Virus record (IMG/VR): IMGVR_UViG_3300046313_000159
Coordinates: 1-43,626 of that record
Length of the DNA: 43,626 bases
DNA from: a virus
Strand: one strand, 5' to 3'
Both the position numbers and the translations under genes were made by a program. This document shows positions 29,435-43,562 of this stretch, piece after piece. The first letter of the stretch is position 1. Each line of letters opens with the position of its first letter. Under the pieces are notes generated by a model. It did not search any database, had not been told where the DNA came from, and worked only from the letters and a program-made list of their open reading frames with translations.

Positions 29435-30108
29435 TACTTACCCCAGTGCTGACAACTTTGTACGGGGCAGAAGCGTTTACATGCAAAGTTAGGTGCGGCA
29501 TTAAACACATTCGTCTCATACGCTACATCCATACGTTTAATTAATGTGTCCCACTCACCAATCATGTCATCGAAGTTGTCCATCTTATAATCTTCTTTGA
29601 GGATTTCTTTGCTGACTAAGAACACTAATCCTGACTTGATTACTTCAACTTCAGGAAAATGCTTAAACACGGCTGCGCCGAGCAAGGACAATTGTCGTGT
29701 GTCAGCATACTGGCTTGACTTACCCGTCTTGTAGTCAATAACAGTAGCGGTCTTTGTGTCAGGGTTCACGATGAGCAAGTCAATAGCACCGCGCCACCAA
29801 ACATCGTCAGCAAAGAAACCAGTAGGTTGTAGATCACGTGTTAATCCAACCTTATGTTCACAATATTTCTTGCCTGGGATTTGTTTCAAGCGGTCAAGCG
29901 ATGATTGAAACTGACTAAACTTCTCAGGTAATGGGACGTTGTCACGCACGTACAACTCCGCAGCTTTGTGAACTTCGTTACCATACAGAAAGTGTTCTGT
30001 GTTTGGGTCTTGTTTAATATCTTTAGCTACATAAAGATGGTAGTACTGTTTAGGGCACTTTTCAAAAGTTGTAGCAGCCGAGTACGACCATGTCTTTAAT
30101 CCAGCCAT
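29434..30108 (-). CDS. Cas4-like / RecB-family PD-(D/E)XK nuclease
   Basis: A 224-residue nuclease. Motifs in order: C18 (FEKCPKQYY), H47 in GNEVHKAAELY, D110 in WRGAIDLLI, D125-x-K127 in VIDYKTGK, Q139 in TRQLSLLG, and a C-terminal Cys set C210, C214 and C219 (CKRFCPVQSC). One N-terminal plus three C-terminal Cys fits the iron-sulfur cluster of Cas4 and AddB. Phage homologues are 5'-3' exonucleases thought to serve recombination or replication. No cas1/cas2 or CRISPR array is near, so a CRISPR role is not indicated. Genes on both sides overlap it by one base. Confidence 0.88.
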   Translation of the reverse strand: MAGLKTWSYSAATTFEKCPKQYYHLYVAKDIKQDPNTEHFLYGNEVHKAAELYVRDNVPLPEKFSQFQSSLDRLKQIPGKKYCEHKVGLTRDLQPTGFFADDVWWRGAIDLLIVNPDTKTATVIDYKTGKSSQYADTRQLSLLGAAVFKHFPEVEVIKSGLVFLVSKEILKEDYKMDNFDDMIGEWDTLIKRMDVAYETNVFNAAPNFACKRFCPVQSCQHWGK

Positions 30109-31429: not shown

Positions 31430-31764
31430 TTGCTCTCTCCATATTTAGTTTGTAATAGCAACTCACAATAGTGAATTGCTTTCTTAATATCCTCAGCACC
31501 GTTCTTAGCATGATGCCTACAGATATACTTCACCACGTTGCCTTCCAAGAACCCAAGATTGTTAGCTGTAATAAACTCAACAGGCTGTATCTTCATGTCC
31601 TTGTAATGGTTGCCACCTTCTTGTTTGGTTAGTGCATTAGTCATTTGAAATTCAGGGTATGCTTCCTGTACTTCCTCGACCCATTCTTTATCTGCTCCGC
31701 TACCCATAGTTACCTTCTCCCCATTAATCCACTTCTCGTAAACTACACTATTTGGCTTCGCCAT
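31426..31764 (-). CDS. DUF3310 protein
   Basis: A 112-residue protein from the ATG at 31764 (GGAGA 5 bases upstream); the longer frame from 31809 is less likely because it would run far into the polymerase gene. The C-terminal domain (about 52-107) is the DUF3310 signature: GNHYKDMKIQPVEFI, GFLEGNVVKYICRHH, and EDIKKAIHYCELLL. This domain is widespread in phages, and some members were linked to nucleotide metabolism, but the biochemical role is not settled. It overlaps the polymerase stop by 17 bases. Confidence 0.85.
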   Translation of the reverse strand: MAKPNSVVYEKWINGEKVTMGSGADKEWVEEVQEAYPEFQMTNALTKQEGGNHYKDMKIQPVEFITANNLGFLEGNVVKYICRHHAKNGAEDIKKAIHYCELLLQTKYGESK

Positions 31765-37212: not shown

Positions 37213-37814
37213 CATGCTACCTCCTTATCAAGTTCATTCGCTACAATCGTTTCCCACACTGCTTCATCAGAAGTCATGTGGCTGTATTCATCTTCTAACG
37301 CTTTATACAATAAGCCACACAGTTCACCAGCTAAATCATTGAGTGTGTTTTCAACTTCTTCATGCTCTTTGTTCAACTGTTCTTGCCATACCTCAGCAAA
37401 GGGGTGGTCATCCTCTAGATAGTTGGCAATCGGTTCTATTTCTAACCCATGAAATACTATGTTGTTGTTTCTCCCCTCAGTCCATGAACAATACCGATAA
37501 CCCCCAAGTTCTTCTACATACTTATGCAGTATGGGGTAGTCTAAGTATAAATCACCCAAGGCTTTGTTTAGGTCAACGACCTTACCACCGAAAGCGGCAC
37601 CATCACCCTGCGACCAAAAGCCTGACCACGTAATGTCTTTCACCATGCGTGATACAGGTTTACCTCCGTAGGTTTGATGAGTCTCTTGATGGGTAGTGAT
37701 AGCAACACCACGCTTCTCACACTCCTCCTCGAACCACTCGTAGACAGACTCATACCACCAGTCACCATCGACATTGATGTCCCGATGTTTGTTTATGAGT
37801 TCTTCCTTAGTCAT
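37212..37814 (-). CDS. Conserved phage protein (SGFWSQGDGA type)
   Basis: A 200-residue acidic protein. It has the motif WSGFWSQGDGAAFGGKV (63-79), preceded by WWYESVYEWFEEECEKRGV and followed by an aromatic stretch (GGYRYCSWTEGRNNN). I recognise the motif from phage proteins present in many phage groups, whose function is not established. The C-terminal half is helical with LAGELCGLLYKALEDEYSHM. It overlaps the upstream gene by 8 bases. Not an enzyme of known class. Confidence 0.75.
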   Translation of the reverse strand: MTKEELINKHRDINVDGDWWYESVYEWFEEECEKRGVAITTHQETHQTYGGKPVSRMVKDITWSGFWSQGDGAAFGGKVVDLNKALGDLYLDYPILHKYVEELGGYRYCSWTEGRNNNIVFHGLEIEPIANYLEDDHPFAEVWQEQLNKEHEEVENTLNDLAGELCGLLYKALEDEYSHMTSDEAVWETIVANELDKEVA

Positions 37815-38325
37815 CTTTCAACTCCAATTCAATCGTATCAAACTCACGATTAAGCAACTGCGCAATGAAGTCACGCACTTGATGGTCATCAGGAACCAGC
37901 ACCGTTGCTGCTTTCTTCACTATTTTTTTAGCCTCCTTAGATAGCCAATAGGTTTGAAATGACCCTGAAGGGCTACGTTTATCGGCAGCATTTATGGTCT
38001 CCTCGATAGTGCTGGTATACCAACTCTTGGTATCTTCTAGTTTAGATAGCGCACATGCTTGTATCATTGCATCAAACAATGCATGCGTATTTTCTAACTC
38101 CTTGTATCTAATAGACCAATTACTTAACAAGATGTAGGGTGAGTCATACTCTGTGGCGATATGTAATGCCAAGCGCGCTGTTGCTGAGTCACCTCTAGAA
38201 ATCTGTCCTGTCAAAACTTGTTTAGCGATGTTGTTTAGTTGTCTGTTGCTAAACGATGATACCTTTACTGACAACTTCAAACTGTCTGCATGTTTTAGTA
38301 AGAAACTTGGTACGTTGATACTCAT
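37807..38325 (-). CDS. Protein of unknown function behind intercistronic repeat copy 4
   Basis: A 172-residue helical protein (SFSNRQLNNIAKQVLTGQIS, ARLALHIATEYDSPYILL) with a charged acidic end (DTIELELKDD). It has no visible motif. The ATG follows a ribosome site AAGGAG that terminates a repeat element shared with three other junctions in this operon. It is the first gene after the VWA protein, so it may belong to the same functional module. Confidence 0.65.
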   Translation of the reverse strand: MSINVPSFLLKHADSLKLSVKVSSFSNRQLNNIAKQVLTGQISRGDSATARLALHIATEYDSPYILLSNWSIRYKELENTHALFDAMIQACALSKLEDTKSWYTSTIEETINAADKRSPSGSFQTYWLSKEAKKIVKKAATVLVPDDHQVRDFIAQLLNREFDTIELELKDD

Positions 38326-38331
38326 GATAAA

Positions 38332-38368
38332 TCTCCTTAACTTTGTGGAACTTCGTGAACTTTGTTAC
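38332..38368 (-). repeat. Intercistronic repeat element, copy 4
   Basis: Minus-strand sequence running from the stop codon of the VWA gene to the ribosome site of the next gene. It starts GTAACAAAGTTCACGAA, continues GTTCCACA and ends AAGTTAAGGAGA. Three AAGTT words are spaced 9 and 10 bases. Matches copies at 41421, 42027 and 43443. Confidence 0.85.
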
Positions 38369-39543
38369 TCACCTAGATAGATACTCTTGCCATGTGGTGA
38401 GGTGACACCCTTGCTAGTGATAGCCCATAGTGTAGGTGCATCCCAATTGCCACCCCAATCAGACTCGACATAGCCATCAGTCAATACAACGATAGCTTCA
38501 GGTGTGATGCGCTTGTCTTTGAGATACTCATTCAAGCTACCGACACGTGTACCACCACCACCCGCAGGCTTAGTCGTTTCAGCTAAGCCTTGATAGTCAC
38601 CGATGTTGTATGTCTCGTGACCTGCTACGTCATAGTCCCAATAGATAAGTTCTACTGACTCAGGCGATACGTCATCACATATACCGACAACTTCTGACAA
38701 GAACTCACGTAACTCTTCGCTACCGATAGAGCCTGACGTGTCGATGCCGATGACTAGCTTACCTACAGTCTCACCAATCATGGAGGGCATGTAGATGTCT
38801 TGACCGATGAACCGACGTGATGGTCGCTTCCATGAGGTCTTGTCTTTGTTCTTGCATGTTGCATTGACAAACTCACGTAGCTGTTCACGCCAATCTACCT
38901 TAGGTTCAAGTAACCCATCAATGGTACGGTTCTGATTGCCTGCCATCTTGCCACGGATAATCTCACCTTGACGTAGGGCTTGGTCAATCTGCTTCTCTAC
39001 TTCCTTCACTTCCTCAGCAGTCAGTTGTTCCGCACCTTCCCAATCATGGTGGTCATGCCCTGCATCGCCTGCCTCACCCTTACCAAACACACCTGTACCA
39101 TTCTCTGCGTCTTGCTTGAGTAAGTCATACACTTGCTTGGTAGTCATGTTCGCATACTTGGTATCAAACAAGCACATACTAGGCATGTCAGTCACTACCC
39201 CACTGGGGTCAGCTTCCTTGATAGTCCAGTTCACCACATAGTCAGCTGCCATGTTCGCAAGGATAGGGCTCTCCTTCCATAGCTTGCGCCATAGTGTCAT
39301 GTGTTGGAACACTTTGTGTAACGCCTCATGTAACACGACAAACGTCAACTGCTTGTCAGTCAACGTGTCGATAAACTTGGGGTTATACATTACATCTCTA
39401 CCATTAGTCGCGGCAGTCGGTAAGTCCTCAGTAAACTTTACTGCACCGACCGACAACACACCCGCAAACAAACAAAACTCTTTGCTTCGCATGATGCTGA
39501 TGTGCGACTTGGTCACTCTTTGTTCTGACGTTAAGTTCGCCAT
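38365..39543 (-). CDS. VWA protein with DUF2201-type metallopeptidase-like domain
   Basis: A 392-residue protein. The N-terminal part has a zincin-like motif HEALH (H72, E73, H76; context VVLHEALHKVFQH), then NMAADYVVNWTI, typical of the DUF2201 'putative metallopeptidase' domain. An acidic linker with HDHHDW follows. The C-terminal von Willebrand A domain has MIDAS DTSGS (268-272) and a later VVLTDG. In families such as CobT, MoxR-associated VWA proteins and phage relatives, such a protein works with an AAA+ ATPase, which is encoded 8 bases upstream here. Target is unknown; protease activity is not proven. Confidence 0.85.
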   Translation of the reverse strand: MANLTSEQRVTKSHISIMRSKEFCLFAGVLSVGAVKFTEDLPTAATNGRDVMYNPKFIDTLTDKQLTFVVLHEALHKVFQHMTLWRKLWKESPILANMAADYVVNWTIKEADPSGVVTDMPSMCLFDTKYANMTTKQVYDLLKQDAENGTGVFGKGEAGDAGHDHHDWEGAEQLTAEEVKEVEKQIDQALRQGEIIRGKMAGNQNRTIDGLLEPKVDWREQLREFVNATCKNKDKTSWKRPSRRFIGQDIYMPSMIGETVGKLVIGIDTSGSIGSEELREFLSEVVGICDDVSPESVELIYWDYDVAGHETYNIGDYQGLAETTKPAGGGGTRVGSLNEYLKDKRITPEAIVVLTDGYVESDWGGNWDAPTLWAITSKGVTSPHGKSIYLGE

Positions 39544-39551
39544 GATAACTC

Positions 39552-40598
39552 CTAGAAGTATTGGTTGTTAGCTACAGCCCAATTAACGAATGACTTGTTA
39601 GTTGCCGCAATAGATTTACGTGTTGATGCCATGATGTTGACTGCAAACAATGCTTGAGTCTCCATTGGTAAGCGTTGTAGATACTTCATCCACGCATCCA
39701 TATGCTCCTCTGTGATTGTCATGAGTTCACGCATCACTAAGATAACCTTAGCGGCAGGGTCTTTAGGCAAGTTAGCCTTCTCAGGTTCTTTATAGATAGA
39801 CTCACGACTAGGTAAGCCATCAGCTAGACTAAAGTACGCAGACATATCACGAGCCGCAGACTCGCCGATAGTGCCCATGAGCGCAGTCAACGTGGTGTCC
39901 TCACCCAACACGTCACGACTACGCACAATGTGTGACGCCTTAGATAATGACCGTGGTGATACAAACGCTTCCTGTTGCTTGCGTGGGTTGTAAATATACA
40001 TGTTCTCTTTCTGTGACTCGTCGGTGTACATAGACAAGCAATGTGGGAACTGTTTAACCCAAGCCAATACCTCAGGCGCAATGCCATTGTCTACACCCCA
40101 TGCTACCCACTCGTCATCGTTCGGGTTACGCACAGTCACCGCAGTCAAACGGTTCTTAGCGTGAGCCTTCATCGTATCGCCCACACCATCTGTTGTTAAG
40201 TTACCTGTTGAATACACGATACTATCGGGATGGAACTTAACAGAACCGAGTCGACGTTCGAGCATGACAGGCAACAACATATTCTTAACAGGCTCACTAG
40301 CCTTAGTAATCTCGTCAAGCATGATAAGCACAGGCTTGCCATGTTGTAGATTGAAGCGTTCGTTAGGATAGAACGCAGTCGTCTTGTCATTGTGGTTCAT
40401 GGCAGGCATAGCTAAGTCACCTAAGTCTAAGTCTGCACAATCAATATACACAGGGATATGGTCAGGGAAACGCTGAGCCAATGTGTTTAGGATAGAACTC
40501 TTACCAATTCCAGGCTGACCTCGTAGGTGGACTGTTACTTCCTTACCTACTGTTGCGATAAGTTCTTCTGCTTGTTTCAAGTTAATCATTTGTTGCAT
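39552..40598 (-). CDS. MoxR/CobS-like AAA+ ATPase
   Basis: A 348-residue protein with AAGGAG upstream. ATPase motifs: Walker A GQPGIGKSS (27-35), Walker B LIMLDE (91-96) and sensor 1 STGN (130-133). The layout of a single AAA+ module with DEITKA after Walker B fits the MoxR/CobS/gas-vesicle GvpN group. The helical C-terminal domain includes MDAWMKYLQRLPMETQ. It lies 8 bases from a VWA protein, the classic partner of MoxR-type ATPases, which together remodel or insert cofactors into proteins. In a phage the substrate may be a host or virion protein; not known. Confidence 0.87.
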   Translation of the reverse strand: MQQMINLKQAEELIATVGKEVTVHLRGQPGIGKSSILNTLAQRFPDHIPVYIDCADLDLGDLAMPAMNHNDKTTAFYPNERFNLQHGKPVLIMLDEITKASEPVKNMLLPVMLERRLGSVKFHPDSIVYSTGNLTTDGVGDTMKAHAKNRLTAVTVRNPNDDEWVAWGVDNGIAPEVLAWVKQFPHCLSMYTDESQKENMYIYNPRKQQEAFVSPRSLSKASHIVRSRDVLGEDTTLTALMGTIGESAARDMSAYFSLADGLPSRESIYKEPEKANLPKDPAAKVILVMRELMTITEEHMDAWMKYLQRLPMETQALFAVNIMASTRKSIAATNKSFVNWAVANNQYF

Positions 40599-40624
40599 GG
40601 TAATACTCCTTCTCTCTATTAAAA

Positions 40625-41416
40625 TTAAACTTCGTCTAACACCTGTGGATTGTTAGCTTTGAGGGCATCATCAATCCAATTCTTCATAGCTTGAGCACTG
40701 CGTGAGTAGTGCATCTTGCCTGTCTGATATTCATAGTACCTACCTTGTGTCATCCATGCGATTGCGTTATACATGTCCCACCATACATCTTTGTTAGGTA
40801 AGTCATTCACTACCCTTGCACCGTTGCGATAGTCCGACTGCCAATAGTTTTGGTCGCCCTCTATCGTGTCACTCATTAGGTTAGTCATTGCATCAACGTA
40901 TTCATAGAACGGCTTAGCTGTCTTACGCACCTCATTCATACGCTTACGATTGACCTTATACTTCTTAACCTGAGGCATCTCTTGCATGGGCTTGTCTAGA
41001 TAGTCAAACTTATATCTATCACCCGCATACATGGCGTAGCCGTTATACGTTACATCCGCATTGACATTGGCACTAAACCCACGAGGCACTAACTCACTCG
41101 ACCTCACCCAGTAGCAACCTCTACCTGTGATTGCAGTAATAAACAACTGCGTACTCAATGTATTCCATCCACACATAGATAAGTTGTAGTGTGTTGGGTA
41201 ATACTCCACAATGTTACTACGATGAAACCCCGCTACAAATACATCTACACCATCTCGTATCTCATGCTTCAACCATTTACTAGCATCATTACGCTTACCG
41301 ATACGTTTAACTGATTGGTCACCACCCCGAATTGGGGTGATGCTGTTAAACAATTCTCTAGCATGGTTATAGCCGTGGATACAAGGTAATACGTTTGCAT
41401 CAATATGAAATGCCAT
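40625..41416 (-). CDS. Conserved protein upstream of the AAA+ gene, behind repeat copy 3
   Basis: A 263-residue aromatic-rich protein (CGWNTLSTQLFITAITGRGC, NYWQSDYRNGARVV, then KDVWWDMYNAIAWMTQGRYY). It has no known motif that I recognise, though proteins of this type do occur next to phage MoxR-type ATPases. It begins with AAGGAGAG that closes a copy of the intercistronic repeat. Gene order (this, AAA+, VWA, repeat, next) suggests a functional set. Function unknown. Confidence 0.65.
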   Translation of the reverse strand: MAFHIDANVLPCIHGYNHARELFNSITPIRGGDQSVKRIGKRNDASKWLKHEIRDGVDVFVAGFHRSNIVEYYPTHYNLSMCGWNTLSTQLFITAITGRGCYWVRSSELVPRGFSANVNADVTYNGYAMYAGDRYKFDYLDKPMQEMPQVKKYKVNRKRMNEVRKTAKPFYEYVDAMTNLMSDTIEGDQNYWQSDYRNGARVVNDLPNKDVWWDMYNAIAWMTQGRYYEYQTGKMHYSRSAQAMKNWIDDALKANNPQVLDEV

Positions 41417-41420
41417 GACC

Positions 41421-41460
41421 TCTCTCCTTTAACTTAGTTCTCTTTCGTGAACTTTGTTAC
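41421..41460 (-). repeat. Intercistronic repeat element, copy 3 (variant)
   Basis: Same element, from the stop codon of the preceding gene (41457-41459) to the ribosome site. The start GTAACAAAGTTCACGAA is identical to the other copies. The middle is replaced by a same-length AGAGAA, so only two AAGTT words remain, and the end reads AAGTTAAAGGAGAGAG. Confidence 0.8.
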
Positions 41461-41636
41461 GACCATTTGCCGAAGCGAACTCGGTCGACACGATTGTCAT
41501 TCTCAAACGGGTCAGTATCCTTAGCAAAGATACTAATGAACGCATCTTGTGCTTTACGTTCAAGCATATCAAACTGCTCACCGATGTCGTTATCCATCTC
41601 TAACTTCGTACGGAACTCAGCGTTAAACGTTGTCAT
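41457..41636 (-). CDS. Small protein of unknown function
   Basis: A 59-residue protein from the ATG at 41636 (GAGG 6 bases upstream; the longer frame from 41648 lacks one). It is acidic with the helical part FNAEFRTKLEMDNDIGEQFD and ends in a basic RVRFGKWS. It overlaps the HTH/AT-hook gene by 14 bases. Its stop codon is the first part of the following repeat element. No family recognised. Confidence 0.6.
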   Translation of the reverse strand: MTTFNAEFRTKLEMDNDIGEQFDMLERKAQDAFISIFAKDTDPFENDNRVDRVRFGKWS

Positions 41637-42024
41637 GGTTAGCCTCACTAGTGAAATCTATCATGCGATTAGCTAAGAACTTAATGCTCTCCATTGTCTT
41701 AGGCAATTCATCAATGTCAACCTTGAATAACTCCTCGAACCACAATACCTCAACCTTGCCTTGACGATGGTCGAATGAGATGCACAAGTCTTTCACATCA
41801 TCAACGAGATACTTCAATACACTTGATGCCTCAACGATAGATACTTGTCTAGGTGCTACAACCTTGCGTGGTCTACCCATCTTAGGCTTAGCTACTGATT
41901 TAACTTTGCGTAGCTGACCGACTAATGAGATGTCACAGTTAGCTAACTTAGCAATATCTTTTGTAGACATGTTTGGCTGTGTTGCTAGGATGTTTCTTAC
42001 TACTGATGATTTAGTTACTTTCAT
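41623..42024 (-). CDS. HTH protein with AT-hook-like motif (candidate regulator)
   Basis: A 133-residue protein, mostly basic at the N-terminus. Residues 5-42 form a helix-turn-helix (VVRNILATQPNMSTKDIAKL, DISLVGQLRKVKSV), followed by an AT-hook-like KMGRPRKVV (48-56) and a separate C-terminal part (VDDVKDLCISFDHRQGKVE, strands then helices). Both elements favour DNA binding. The gene lies behind a strong promoter with an overlapping palindrome and a repeat copy, so it may control that promoter or the repeat elements. This is inference; no named family is assigned. Confidence 0.72.
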   Translation of the reverse strand: MKVTKSSVVRNILATQPNMSTKDIAKLANCDISLVGQLRKVKSVAKPKMGRPRKVVAPRQVSIVEASSVLKYLVDDVKDLCISFDHRQGKVEVLWFEELFKVDIDELPKTMESIKFLANRMIDFTSEANHDNV

Positions 42025-42026
42025 TT

Positions 42027-42066
42027 CTCTCTCCTTAACTTAGTGGAACTTCGTGAACTTTGTTAC
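42027..42066 (-). repeat. Intercistronic repeat element, copy 2
   Basis: Same element, here in the leader of the HTH/AT-hook gene. It carries three AAGTT words (GTAACAAAGTTCACGAA start, GTTCCACT middle, AAGTTAAGGAGAGAG end). Unlike the other three copies it does not contain a gene's stop codon: the leading TAA follows a spacer and the nearest gene upstream ends at 42137. Confidence 0.85.
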
Positions 42067-42098
42067 ATACAATCAATGGTTTACTTACCACTGAACTA

Positions 42099-42129
42099 AC
42101 ATTGTAGCATACATACTTTACAATGTCTA
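42099..42129 (-). promoter_or_regulatory. Sigma70 promoter with overlapping palindrome, upstream of HTH/AT-hook gene
   Basis: Minus strand: -35 TAGACA (42124-42129), 17-base spacer, -10 TACAAT (42101-42106) with an extended TGC. A perfect 8-bp inverted repeat (ACATTGTA / TACAATGT, arms 42099-42106 and 42119-42126, centres 20 bases apart) covers the -10 and part of the -35. Such a layout suits repression by a dimeric HTH protein. The leader of about 70 bases then contains repeat copy 2. Confidence 0.65.
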
Positions 42130-42136
42130 GTCAGTG

Positions 42137-42304
42137 TTACTTCGTTTGGGCTTTGTTCACCTCCTCTCTTGAGTCACGCATAGACTCCTCCTCCATGCGC
42201 ATGTGCATAATGTTTAGGGCTTTGCCTAACTCTTGGTTAGATATGTCTGACTGTGCTAAACGTCTAGCCGTCTCACCGAATGTTTCAGTCCATCTCTCGT
42301 TCAT
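42137..42304 (-). CDS. 55-residue protein of unknown function
   Basis: A frame whose ATG overlaps the upstream stop by ATGA (42301-42304), running 55 codons. The product is helical and charged (MNERWTETFGETARRLAQSD, then KALNIMHMRMEEESM). AAAGGAAA lies about 8 bases before the start. It fills the gap between the zinc-ribbon gene and the promoter. No family recognised. Confidence 0.6.
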   Translation of the reverse strand: MNERWTETFGETARRLAQSDISNQELGKALNIMHMRMEEESMRDSREEVNKAQTK

Positions 42305-42504
42305 GTGTTCTTTTCCTTTAATGCTTGTTCAATTCTAGGTCTTGCATCTTTATACCCACACCAACATTTCTGTGAAGGCAATAGAATCTTTGGCTGTGCT
42401 TTCGGCAATTTAACTGTGCAATTAGGACAAGGCACTCCATATTCCTCACGCATTTCTTTCTTATACCGCTTCATGTCATTAAATATTTCTGCCATATCAC
42501 CCAT
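42301..42504 (-). CDS. Zinc-ribbon small phage protein
   Basis: A 67-residue protein. N-terminal charged helix (MAEIFNDMKRYKKEMREEYG), then a zinc-ribbon C26, C29, C47 and C49 (PCPNCTVKLPKAQ, LLPSQKCWCGYKD), ending in a basic segment. I recognise the pattern with KLPKAQPKILLP from small phage proteins. Role unknown; zinc ribbons of this size often bind nucleic acid or proteins. It overlaps both neighbours by 4-8 bases. Confidence 0.7.
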   Translation of the reverse strand: MGDMAEIFNDMKRYKKEMREEYGVPCPNCTVKLPKAQPKILLPSQKCWCGYKDARPRIEQALKEKNT

Positions 42505-42895
42505 GATTCTTTTCCTTTAGCTTGGCTTCAATGGCCATTACAAAGTCAATAATGTCGCAAGAAAGTATTAAGCTAATATTGAGTTCATCAGTAATTTTAT
42601 TTATATCTTCACTTGTTAATCCTTGCCATTGATGAGGGTGGGTGTAGAGATTAGTACCGTTAGCAAGTTCTAACCCTTTATCAAATAAATTTACTCTTGA
42701 TGTTTTATGTCCGTGATGGTCAATTACTTCAATCCAAGCCACAGGCTCTTGCGCTGGTTGTTCTAGTGCTTCTAATATCTTTTCACATAACATACGATAT
42801 TGTTCGCACCAATATTTTGTTTCTGCGTTTGTATTATGTCTTTCATTATCTTTGTGGCTTTCTAATGCCATCTTTAATGCTTCGTCTTTAGTCAT
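42497..42895 (-). CDS. Phage protein with EPVAWIE-type strand motif
   Basis: A 132-residue protein. An N-terminal helix (EALKMALESHKDNERHNTNA) is followed by a helix with LEALEQPAQEPVAWIEVIDH, then ANGTNLYTHPHQWQGLTSED. The 'Q-P-x-Q-E-P-V-A-W' linked to 'L-Y-T-H-P' motif is a common phage early protein type in Gram-negative, notably betaproteobacterial, phages. Function is unknown. This family is one of the few host hints in the window. Confidence 0.68.
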   Translation of the reverse strand: MTKDEALKMALESHKDNERHNTNAETKYWCEQYRMLCEKILEALEQPAQEPVAWIEVIDHHGHKTSRVNLFDKGLELANGTNLYTHPHQWQGLTSEDINKITDELNISLILSCDIIDFVMAIEAKLKEKNHG

Positions 42896-43098
42896 TTACT
42901 ACCTCCCTTATGTGAACTGTTCAAACCCAATAACAACGCCATGTCTGTGACAACAATGTAGTTACTCTTTGGCATGGGCACGATGGTGTGCTTGTACGCA
43001 CGAGCATCCTCCTCGCCACAAAACAAACACGTCCTGTAACCTATCTTGTATCTGCGGTCATCAATATCATCACCGCATCTGTTACATTGATTACTCAT
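42892..43098 (-). CDS. Double CxxC zinc-ribbon phage protein
   Basis: A 68-residue protein with zinc-binding C5, C8, C24 and C27 (CNRCGDDIDDRRYKIGYRTC, LFCGEE), then RAYKHTIVPMPKSNYIVVTD and a short hydrophobic end. This small protein type is frequent in podovirus-like phages, always uncharacterised. Start and stop both overlap neighbours by ATGA. Confidence 0.72.
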   Translation of the reverse strand: MSNQCNRCGDDIDDRRYKIGYRTCLFCGEEDARAYKHTIVPMPKSNYIVVTDMALLLGLNSSHKGGSK

Positions 43099-43349
43099 TT
43101 GGCTTTCTCCTTTAATAAGTCTATGGCTTTCGATGACATGACATAACCTCGGTCTACTGTGATGTTGATACCTTCATCGTCACGCACATAATCAGACGCA
43201 TATATAAGGTAGTGCGCTTTAGCTAACTTGGCTATTGCTTCTATCTGTTCAAAGTCTCTAATGTCTACATCGCTAGTGATAGGTATCTTGTTATACCCAT
43301 ACATCAGCTTCAACATCGTTAACTTCGTAACTGCATCATTCTTAGTCAT
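43095..43349 (-). CDS. Small phage protein
   Basis: An 84-residue protein from the ATG at 43349, which overlaps the stop of a 30-residue gene (ATGA); the longer frame from 43406 would overlap that gene fully. Sequence: helix TKNDAVTKLTMLKLMYGYNK, then DVDIRDFEQIEAIAKLAKAH and strands near INITVDRGYVMSSKAI. No family recognised. Confidence 0.6.
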   Translation of the reverse strand: MTKNDAVTKLTMLKLMYGYNKIPITSDVDIRDFEQIEAIAKLAKAHYLIYASDYVRDDEGINITVDRGYVMSSKAIDLLKEKAK

Positions 43350-43438
43350 ACCGCACCTGTGGCTGTTAGATAGGTTACATATATCCATCCGAATACACAG
43401 AACCAAAACACTACCTTATCCCATTGGTCAGGTGTCAT
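43346..43438 (-). CDS. 30-residue single-pass membrane micro-protein
   Basis: A 30-codon frame with a good ribosome site (AAAGGAGAGAG, the end of repeat copy 1). The product, MTPDQWDKVVFWFCVFGWIY then VTYLTATGAV, has one membrane helix and a short N-terminal polar end. Its stop overlaps the next start by ATGA. Its size resembles small phage membrane modulators such as superinfection-exclusion or lysis-control peptides, but no such function can be claimed. Confidence 0.62.
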   Translation of the reverse strand: MTPDQWDKVVFWFCVFGWIYVTYLTATGAV

Positions 43439-43442
43439 TACG

Positions 43443-43483
43443 CTCTCTCCTTTAACATTGTGGAACTTCGTGAACTTTGTTAC
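43443..43483 (-). repeat. Intercistronic repeat element, copy 1
   Basis: Same element between a 26-residue gene (its TAA is inside the element, 43480-43482) and the 30-residue membrane gene. Starts GTAACAAAGTTCACGAA, then GTTCCACA and ends ATGTTAAAGGAGAGAG, so the last word is ATGTT rather than AAGTT. Confidence 0.85.
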
Positions 43484-43560
43484 TTGCCTGTGCGTGTGAA
43501 TAGTGCTTCACGTTGCAAGTGCATCGCATGACGCATCATTTGAAATATCGCATAGTGCAT
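43480..43560 (-). CDS. 26-residue basic micro-protein
   Basis: A 26-codon frame (MHYAIFQMMRHAMHLQREAL, then FTRTGK) from the ATG at 43560, with AGGGGG 6 bases upstream; an ATG at 43566 would overlap the upstream stop by ATGA and add two residues. It is amphipathic and basic, and its stop lies in repeat copy 1. Likely real because of ribosome site and tight junctions; role unknown. Confidence 0.48.
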   Translation of the reverse strand: MHYAIFQMMRHAMHLQREALFTRTGK

Positions 43561-43562
43561 AA

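Follow-up and report, generated by a model that had tools for sequence, protein, structure and literature searches.

The repeated intercistronic element of this virus genome probably belongs to a network of phage-specific, repressor-type operators, each 30 bp long and two-fold symmetric, at which a bound protein would be capable of roadblocking transcription. Four readings had been raised in an earlier note on this DNA, and the binding site of a phage regulator is the one best supported by the sequence comparisons reported below. The window analyzed here is the whole virus record (IMG/VR IMGVR_UViG_3300046313_000159; 43,626 nucleotides), and the copy count for its phage is limited to that record.

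A 30-bp dyad in four copies

The 17-mer GTAACAAAGTTCACGAA occurs exactly at minus-strand positions 38368, 41460, 42066 and 43483, the places reported earlier, and has no other exact match in the window. Allowing up to three mismatches yields six matches, against 0.2 expected; the additional ones, at 29965 and 35186, are chance hits in coding sequence. As had also been described, all four copies lead directly into the AAGG(A)GAGA ribosome site of the gene that follows, and in three of them the TAA of GTAAC is the stop codon of the upstream gene (38365, 41457 and 43480). In the copy at 42066 this TAA is not a stop codon, and a promoter-like TAGACA-17-TACAAT precedes it.

The earlier note took the conserved unit to be about 40 bases. 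The repetition is real, but the unit is the 30-bp dyad TAACnnnGT-n12-ACnnnGTTA, which the window matches perfectly four times (0.05 expected per shuffle), and the ribosome site is its neighbor. The symmetry of the window sites is only partial: TAAC/GTTA and GT/AC are fixed, and the inner bases mostly are not. In these sites a GTTCAC half is joined to a GTGGAA half, and the copy at 41460 has symmetric inner arms. The AAGTT words that had been seen to recur at regular intervals owe their spacing to the spacer and arms of the dyad, and the copy at 41460 lacks the middle word. The dyads and the genes and signals around them are as follows.

37807–38325, minus strand: gene downstream of dyad 1; 172 aa, no assigned function
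38332–38337, minus strand: ribosome site AGGAGA of the gene at 38325–37807
38338–38367, minus strand: putative operator dyad 1, TAACAAAGTTCACGAAGTTCCACAAAGTTA; the VWA gene terminates at its TAA, and the ribosome site is next
38365–39543, minus strand: VWA/metallopeptidase-like gene upstream of dyad 1
40625–41416, minus strand: gene downstream of dyad 2; 263 aa, conserved, no assigned function
41430–41459, minus strand: putative operator dyad 2, TAACAAAGTTCACGAAAGAGAACTAAGTTA; symmetric inner arms AGTTC/GAACT
41623–42024, minus strand: gene downstream of dyad 3, encoding the HTH/AT-hook product; 133 aa, candidate binder of the earlier note
42036–42065, minus strand: putative operator dyad 3, TAACAAAGTTCACGAAGTTCCACTAAGTTA; within a leader, not at a stop codon; its equivalent in the relative L004 is 1467–1496
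42101–42129, minus strand: sigma-70-like promoter TAGACA-17-TACAAT, read from sequence, 35 nt upstream of dyad 3
43453–43482, minus strand: putative operator dyad 4, TAACAAAGTTCACGAAGTTCCACAATGTTA; a 28-aa ORF terminates at its TAA

Separately, a sub-threshold Rfam match to ssnA (24 bits, cut-off 37) lies at 31556–31596 on the plus strand, opposite a coding gene, and is probably due to chance.

Relatives carry their own versions of the dyad

The exact 17-mer is present in five IMG/VR contigs. Four of these are chance hits inside one coding gene, and only the 11-kb contig L004 is a true relative; a DNA search of a phage collection with the element gave no match. L004 has two copies of the exact sequence with different genes following each, the second after a TGGACA-17-TATAAT promoter at the place equivalent to the promoter of dyad 3. 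Further relatives were retrieved with the VWA/metallopeptidase-like gene. Those with neighboring proteins 83–91% identical lack the window sequence and have other inverted repeats at the same junctions: a dyad is present in most relatives at the junction of dyad 1, upstream of the homologous downstream gene, and in many at that of dyad 2. Within a genome, one repeat recurs at several junctions. The earlier note had proposed searching relatives for the element and counting its absence under shared gene order as refutation. Dyads of the same geometry were found at the same junctions, although not the window sequence, and the rule would mislead, since the version at a given place differs from one relative to the next.

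Analysis of whole contigs gave a dyad of about 30 bp and fixed length, in which an outer arm of 4–5 bases, a free spacer of 2–4, an inner arm of 4–6 and a free center of 3–8 are followed by the mirrored arrangement (for example, GAACAnnnTTACTnnnnAGTAAnnnTGTTC in G006, TAACnnnGTGGCAnnnnTGCCACnnnGTTA in G002 and GGAAnnnnGCACGnnnnCGTGCnnnnTTCC in G011). Dyad families of at least three copies are present in 40 of 82 non-redundant contigs versus 1 of 82 after shuffling; setting aside L096, L143 and L146 as compositional reduces the 40 to 37. Among six contigs that have the candidate regulator gene described below but no detected family, five have dyads before ribosome sites that the filter had missed. 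The window and L004 share the TAAC...GTTA type, with four exact matches to the frame in each (0.05 expected in the window and 0.00 in L004), and a perfect palindrome, TAACATAGTGGCTTAATTGCCACTATGTTA, lies directly after the first early gene of L004.

Each phage of the group has about 3–9 copies of its own version, and arm identity is 15.2/16 within a contig versus 7.4/16 between contigs. All copies in a genome change their sequence together, and the flanking genes stay nearly identical; L177 and L158 are ~92% identical over 2.9 kb except in the promoter-leader-operator stretch. Measured by terminase, even the closest isolates (HTVC023P-type pelagiphages and DSL-LC04) do not exceed about 52% identity. 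No comparable dyad family was found in the tested portions of the nearest isolates by TerL (HTVC027P, DSL-LC04 and Pag-Yong1), and a TerL search of genome contigs returned one bin contig only.

These comparisons bear on the earlier suggestion of a recombination seam, in which the element would be a homology patch for swapping early-gene cassettes. Window positions 43443–43561 and L004 1110–1228, which include the first L004 copy, match at 97% identity along 119 bp, up to the dyad, past which the genes differ; such exchange may be a by-product. However, sites diverge between close relatives whose colinear neighbor genes are >90% identical, the opposite of what is expected of a conserved homology patch, and a seam leaves the fixed dyad geometry and the promoter spacing unexplained. 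We regard it as very unlikely indeed. The 119-bp stretch itself consists of a tiny gene (MHYAIFQ...) and the operator in otherwise unrelated DNA, and has the appearance of a small exchanged module.

Sites lie in leaders and between genes

We defined good sites as those with an arm match of at least 14/16 (n = 173, versus about 2 in shuffled contigs). Of these, 121 stand directly before a ribosome site, and 56 of the 121 (46%) lie 28–73 nt after a near-perfect sigma-70 promoter, with a mode of 38–39 nt, compared with 2.6% of random positions; promoters were called at no fewer than 10/12 matches to TTGACA/TATAAT within 110 nt upstream. Other copies flank the first early gene. Most sites either follow strong early promoters or occupy the gap that separates a stop codon from the ribosome site after it. 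That the element is itself a phage-specific promoter, as had been considered, is not needed, near-consensus sigma-70 promoters being present upstream of the sites. As the site lies near +30 of the transcript or within operons, we infer that a protein occupying it would be expected to block elongation; roadblocking of transcription has been reviewed (PMC10310618).

Other repeated sequences were noted in the relatives, outside the operators. Non-coding stretches of L004 (1960–2850 and 3860–4250) abound, on both strands, in AAAGTTCACGAAG/AACTTCGTGAAC and ACGTAAT words. Several relatives also have a different conserved dyad, TAGRCGY GT CACT-ACCTCTCTC-GGTG GC RCGTCTA, with a T-rich run after it; it is terminator-like and separate from the operators, with one position recorded per relative:

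L021, 19045: second conserved dyad
L022, 16607: second conserved dyad
L023, 18708: second conserved dyad
L026, 18863: second conserved dyad
L030, 15967: second conserved dyad
L031, 20334: second conserved dyad

Terminator-like hairpins also occur after the operator that follows the first early gene in L037 (3086) and L124 (7337).

DNA site or RNA hairpin

An RNA signal had also been suggested, and a hairpin before the ribosome site could serve as a translational operator, an RNase site or a stability element. Most copies are transcribed and sit just before a ribosome site, a tight link that could also suit a translational operator. The dyads of many relatives fold as two-stem hairpins, and their stems vary between genomes but remain complementary. 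On the strength of these folds the hairpin at first appeared a strong candidate, and it then failed the wobble and covariation test. An RNA hairpin should show more single changes to G.U than to A.C; in transcript orientation, the two were equal (17 G.T versus 17 A.C mismatches; 9:12 under a stricter cut). Compensatory change within genomes is almost absent, with only 2–3 compensated pairs and double changes in 3 of 106 deviating pairs. The base that adjoins the outer arm (spacer position 9) is A/T in almost every case on either side, irrespective of whether the two can pair. Moreover, in L004 and L069 a copy precedes the promoter that serves the first early gene, dyads are found in both orientations, three of the four window copies fold along the dyad no better than shuffles, and an Rfam search at the sites gave no match. 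The mismatch counts, scarce compensation, A/T spacer, copies upstream of promoters and poor folding together argue for a DNA site; the RNA reading is disfavored on this modest sample, and we consider it quite unlikely.

A first early protein varies with the site sequence

The protein that binds the sites is likely the all-helical product of the first early gene, judging from its covariation with them, rather than the HTH/AT-hook product of the window (41623–42024) that the earlier note had nominated. This gene, divergent from terS, encodes a protein of 190–250 aa in nearly every contig that reaches the terminase genes. It is present in 21 of the 23 operator-bearing contigs that reach terS (in G016 it is present and terS is absent from the contig), and sites flank it. 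The window record ends before this gene, and the window's own binder is therefore a prediction.

The binder screen covered widely shared genes of at least 60 aa, in 40 protein families each common to at least 7 of 20 contigs. The first early protein was the sole family never more than 43% identical between contigs with different sites, the remaining families reaching 52–100% identity in some such pair. In pairs with clearly the same operator, its identity is 44–81%. G007 and L107 have 100% identical terS, first early proteins that are 41% identical, and different inner half-sites. The Mantel correlation was 0.25 (p ≤ 0.001), and the partial correlation given terS was 0.21 (p ≤ 0.004), values kept modest by the saturation of most pairs. 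Among members of a specificity group, residues of about 94–131 and 162–183 are highly conserved.

AlphaFold models the candidate protein as all-helical, comprising an N-terminal domain of four helices and a long helix (mean pLDDT 85), and gives the same topology for another specificity group (mean pLDDT 71). No Pfam, PHROG, PDB or Foldseek relative was detected, and viral models were likewise without a match; Foldseek returned nothing significant, a weak resemblance to the Cre core-binding domain (E about 7–8) not being used, and the protein was not found in named phages. With no recognized relative, DNA binding by this protein draws no support from its fold.

It is rather unlikely, in our judgment, that the sites are DNA operators read by another protein, such as an XRE-type HTH protein, the HTH/AT-hook product of the window or the product of a short gene outside the screen. 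XRE HTH genes do adjoin sites in L004, G002, G011 and L037, and dyad 3 precedes the HTH/AT-hook gene. The XRE family, however, is present in only 7 of the 20 screened contigs and is up to 67% identical between contigs with different sites, and the first 30 relatives contain no homolog of the 41623–42024 product, which has a weak MarR-like match only and no significant family. Both candidates were set aside as absent or not co-varying. The XRE-type HTH genes belong to the early region of some relatives only (L004 1584–1958, G002 38344–38920 and L037 3967–4457) and stand in tandem in G002 and L037. Searches for integrase, resolvase and ParA were negative (PF00589 was absent in 18 contigs and PF00239/PF13614 in 12, many of them incomplete), and a lysogeny repressor is thus not supported.

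A model for concerted operator switching

In the model that we favor, each operator would consist of two 13-bp half-sites, each comprising an outer contact, an A/T spacer and an inner contact, around a free 4-bp center. The all-helical first early protein would bind the sites as a dimer and repress early transcription, both as a block to RNA polymerase within leaders and operons, as at stoperators, and through action at its own promoter. Sites would abut ribosome sites because that gap is the sole non-coding space in the operon. The diversity of the sites may reflect competition between phages. A broader proposition, which we hold tentatively and at slightly less than even weight, is that a previously undescribed family of all-helical early proteins without a recognized DNA-binding fold read 30-bp palindromes in leaders and operon gaps, form many specificity groups among close, apparently non-lysogenic phages, and switch together with their sites as an immunity-like or superinfection-competition system.

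On this reading, a puzzling repeat becomes a regulator-operator code that can be tested, in uncultured aquatic phages that form a widespread group, with an unannotated protein family named as the probable reader. Near-identical genes accompanied by different operator sets raise the question of how scattered sites switch specificity in concert, and of what need phages that have no integrase would have for immunity-like specificity groups. With so many natural protein/site pairs, a recognition code could be derived.

Comparison with known systems

T7-type intercistronic RNase III sites are hairpin-like repeats that separate early genes and lie immediately before ribosome sites. The sites described here resemble them in these respects but differ in having no covariation or wobble signal and in having copies outside the transcript. 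From the immunity operators of temperate phages they differ in that integrase and partition genes for lysogeny were not found in the contigs searched, many of which are incomplete.

Cluster O phages such as Corndog contain scattered, invariant 17-bp dyad repeats with an A/T-rich center, no orientation and no assigned function, and lack an integrase (PMC4351075). Scattered invariant inverted repeats, the A/T-rich center and the lack of orientation are common to our sites, and no integrase was found here either. In contrast, the Corndog repeat has >30 copies, one third of them in genes, is not tied to ribosome sites, and has a sequence common to the whole cluster, whereas the sites here switch between close relatives.

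The SAS/ESAS repeats of Cluster K mycobacteriophages lie directly upstream of the start codons of a subset of genes; some contain the upstream stop codon, the inverted-repeat consensus varies by subcluster, and the authors prefer DNA over RNA binding (PMC3203893). Inverted repeats just upstream of the start region with a consensus varying between relatives are also found here, with a fixed 30-bp geometry. Instead of 17-bp repeats with a variable spacer of 4–13 bp there is one 30-bp dyad, and instead of the 13-bp SAS box GGGATAGGAGCCC at the start codon there are ordinary AAGGAGAGA ribosome sites. Unlike SAS/ESAS, the sites here track strong promoters, and a co-varying candidate protein has been identified.

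The stoperators of Cluster A mycobacteriophages L5 and Bxb1 are scattered regulator sites, some at promoters and most not, with a genome-specific consensus that correlates with the cognate repressor; they are asymmetric and oriented, number 20–30 per genome, and have a proven repressor and lysogeny (PMC6550527). Here too, a genome-specific, putative regulator site recurs several times per genome, in many cases away from promoters. The sites described here are, however, palindromic and present in both orientations, number about 3–9, and have a candidate binder only, with no integrase found. Since asymmetry, orientation and the SAS box are lacking, we do not file them as stoperators or as SAS/ESAS members. 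By analogy, the operators described here would work like stoperators and ESAS, in palindromic form, yet belong to neither class.
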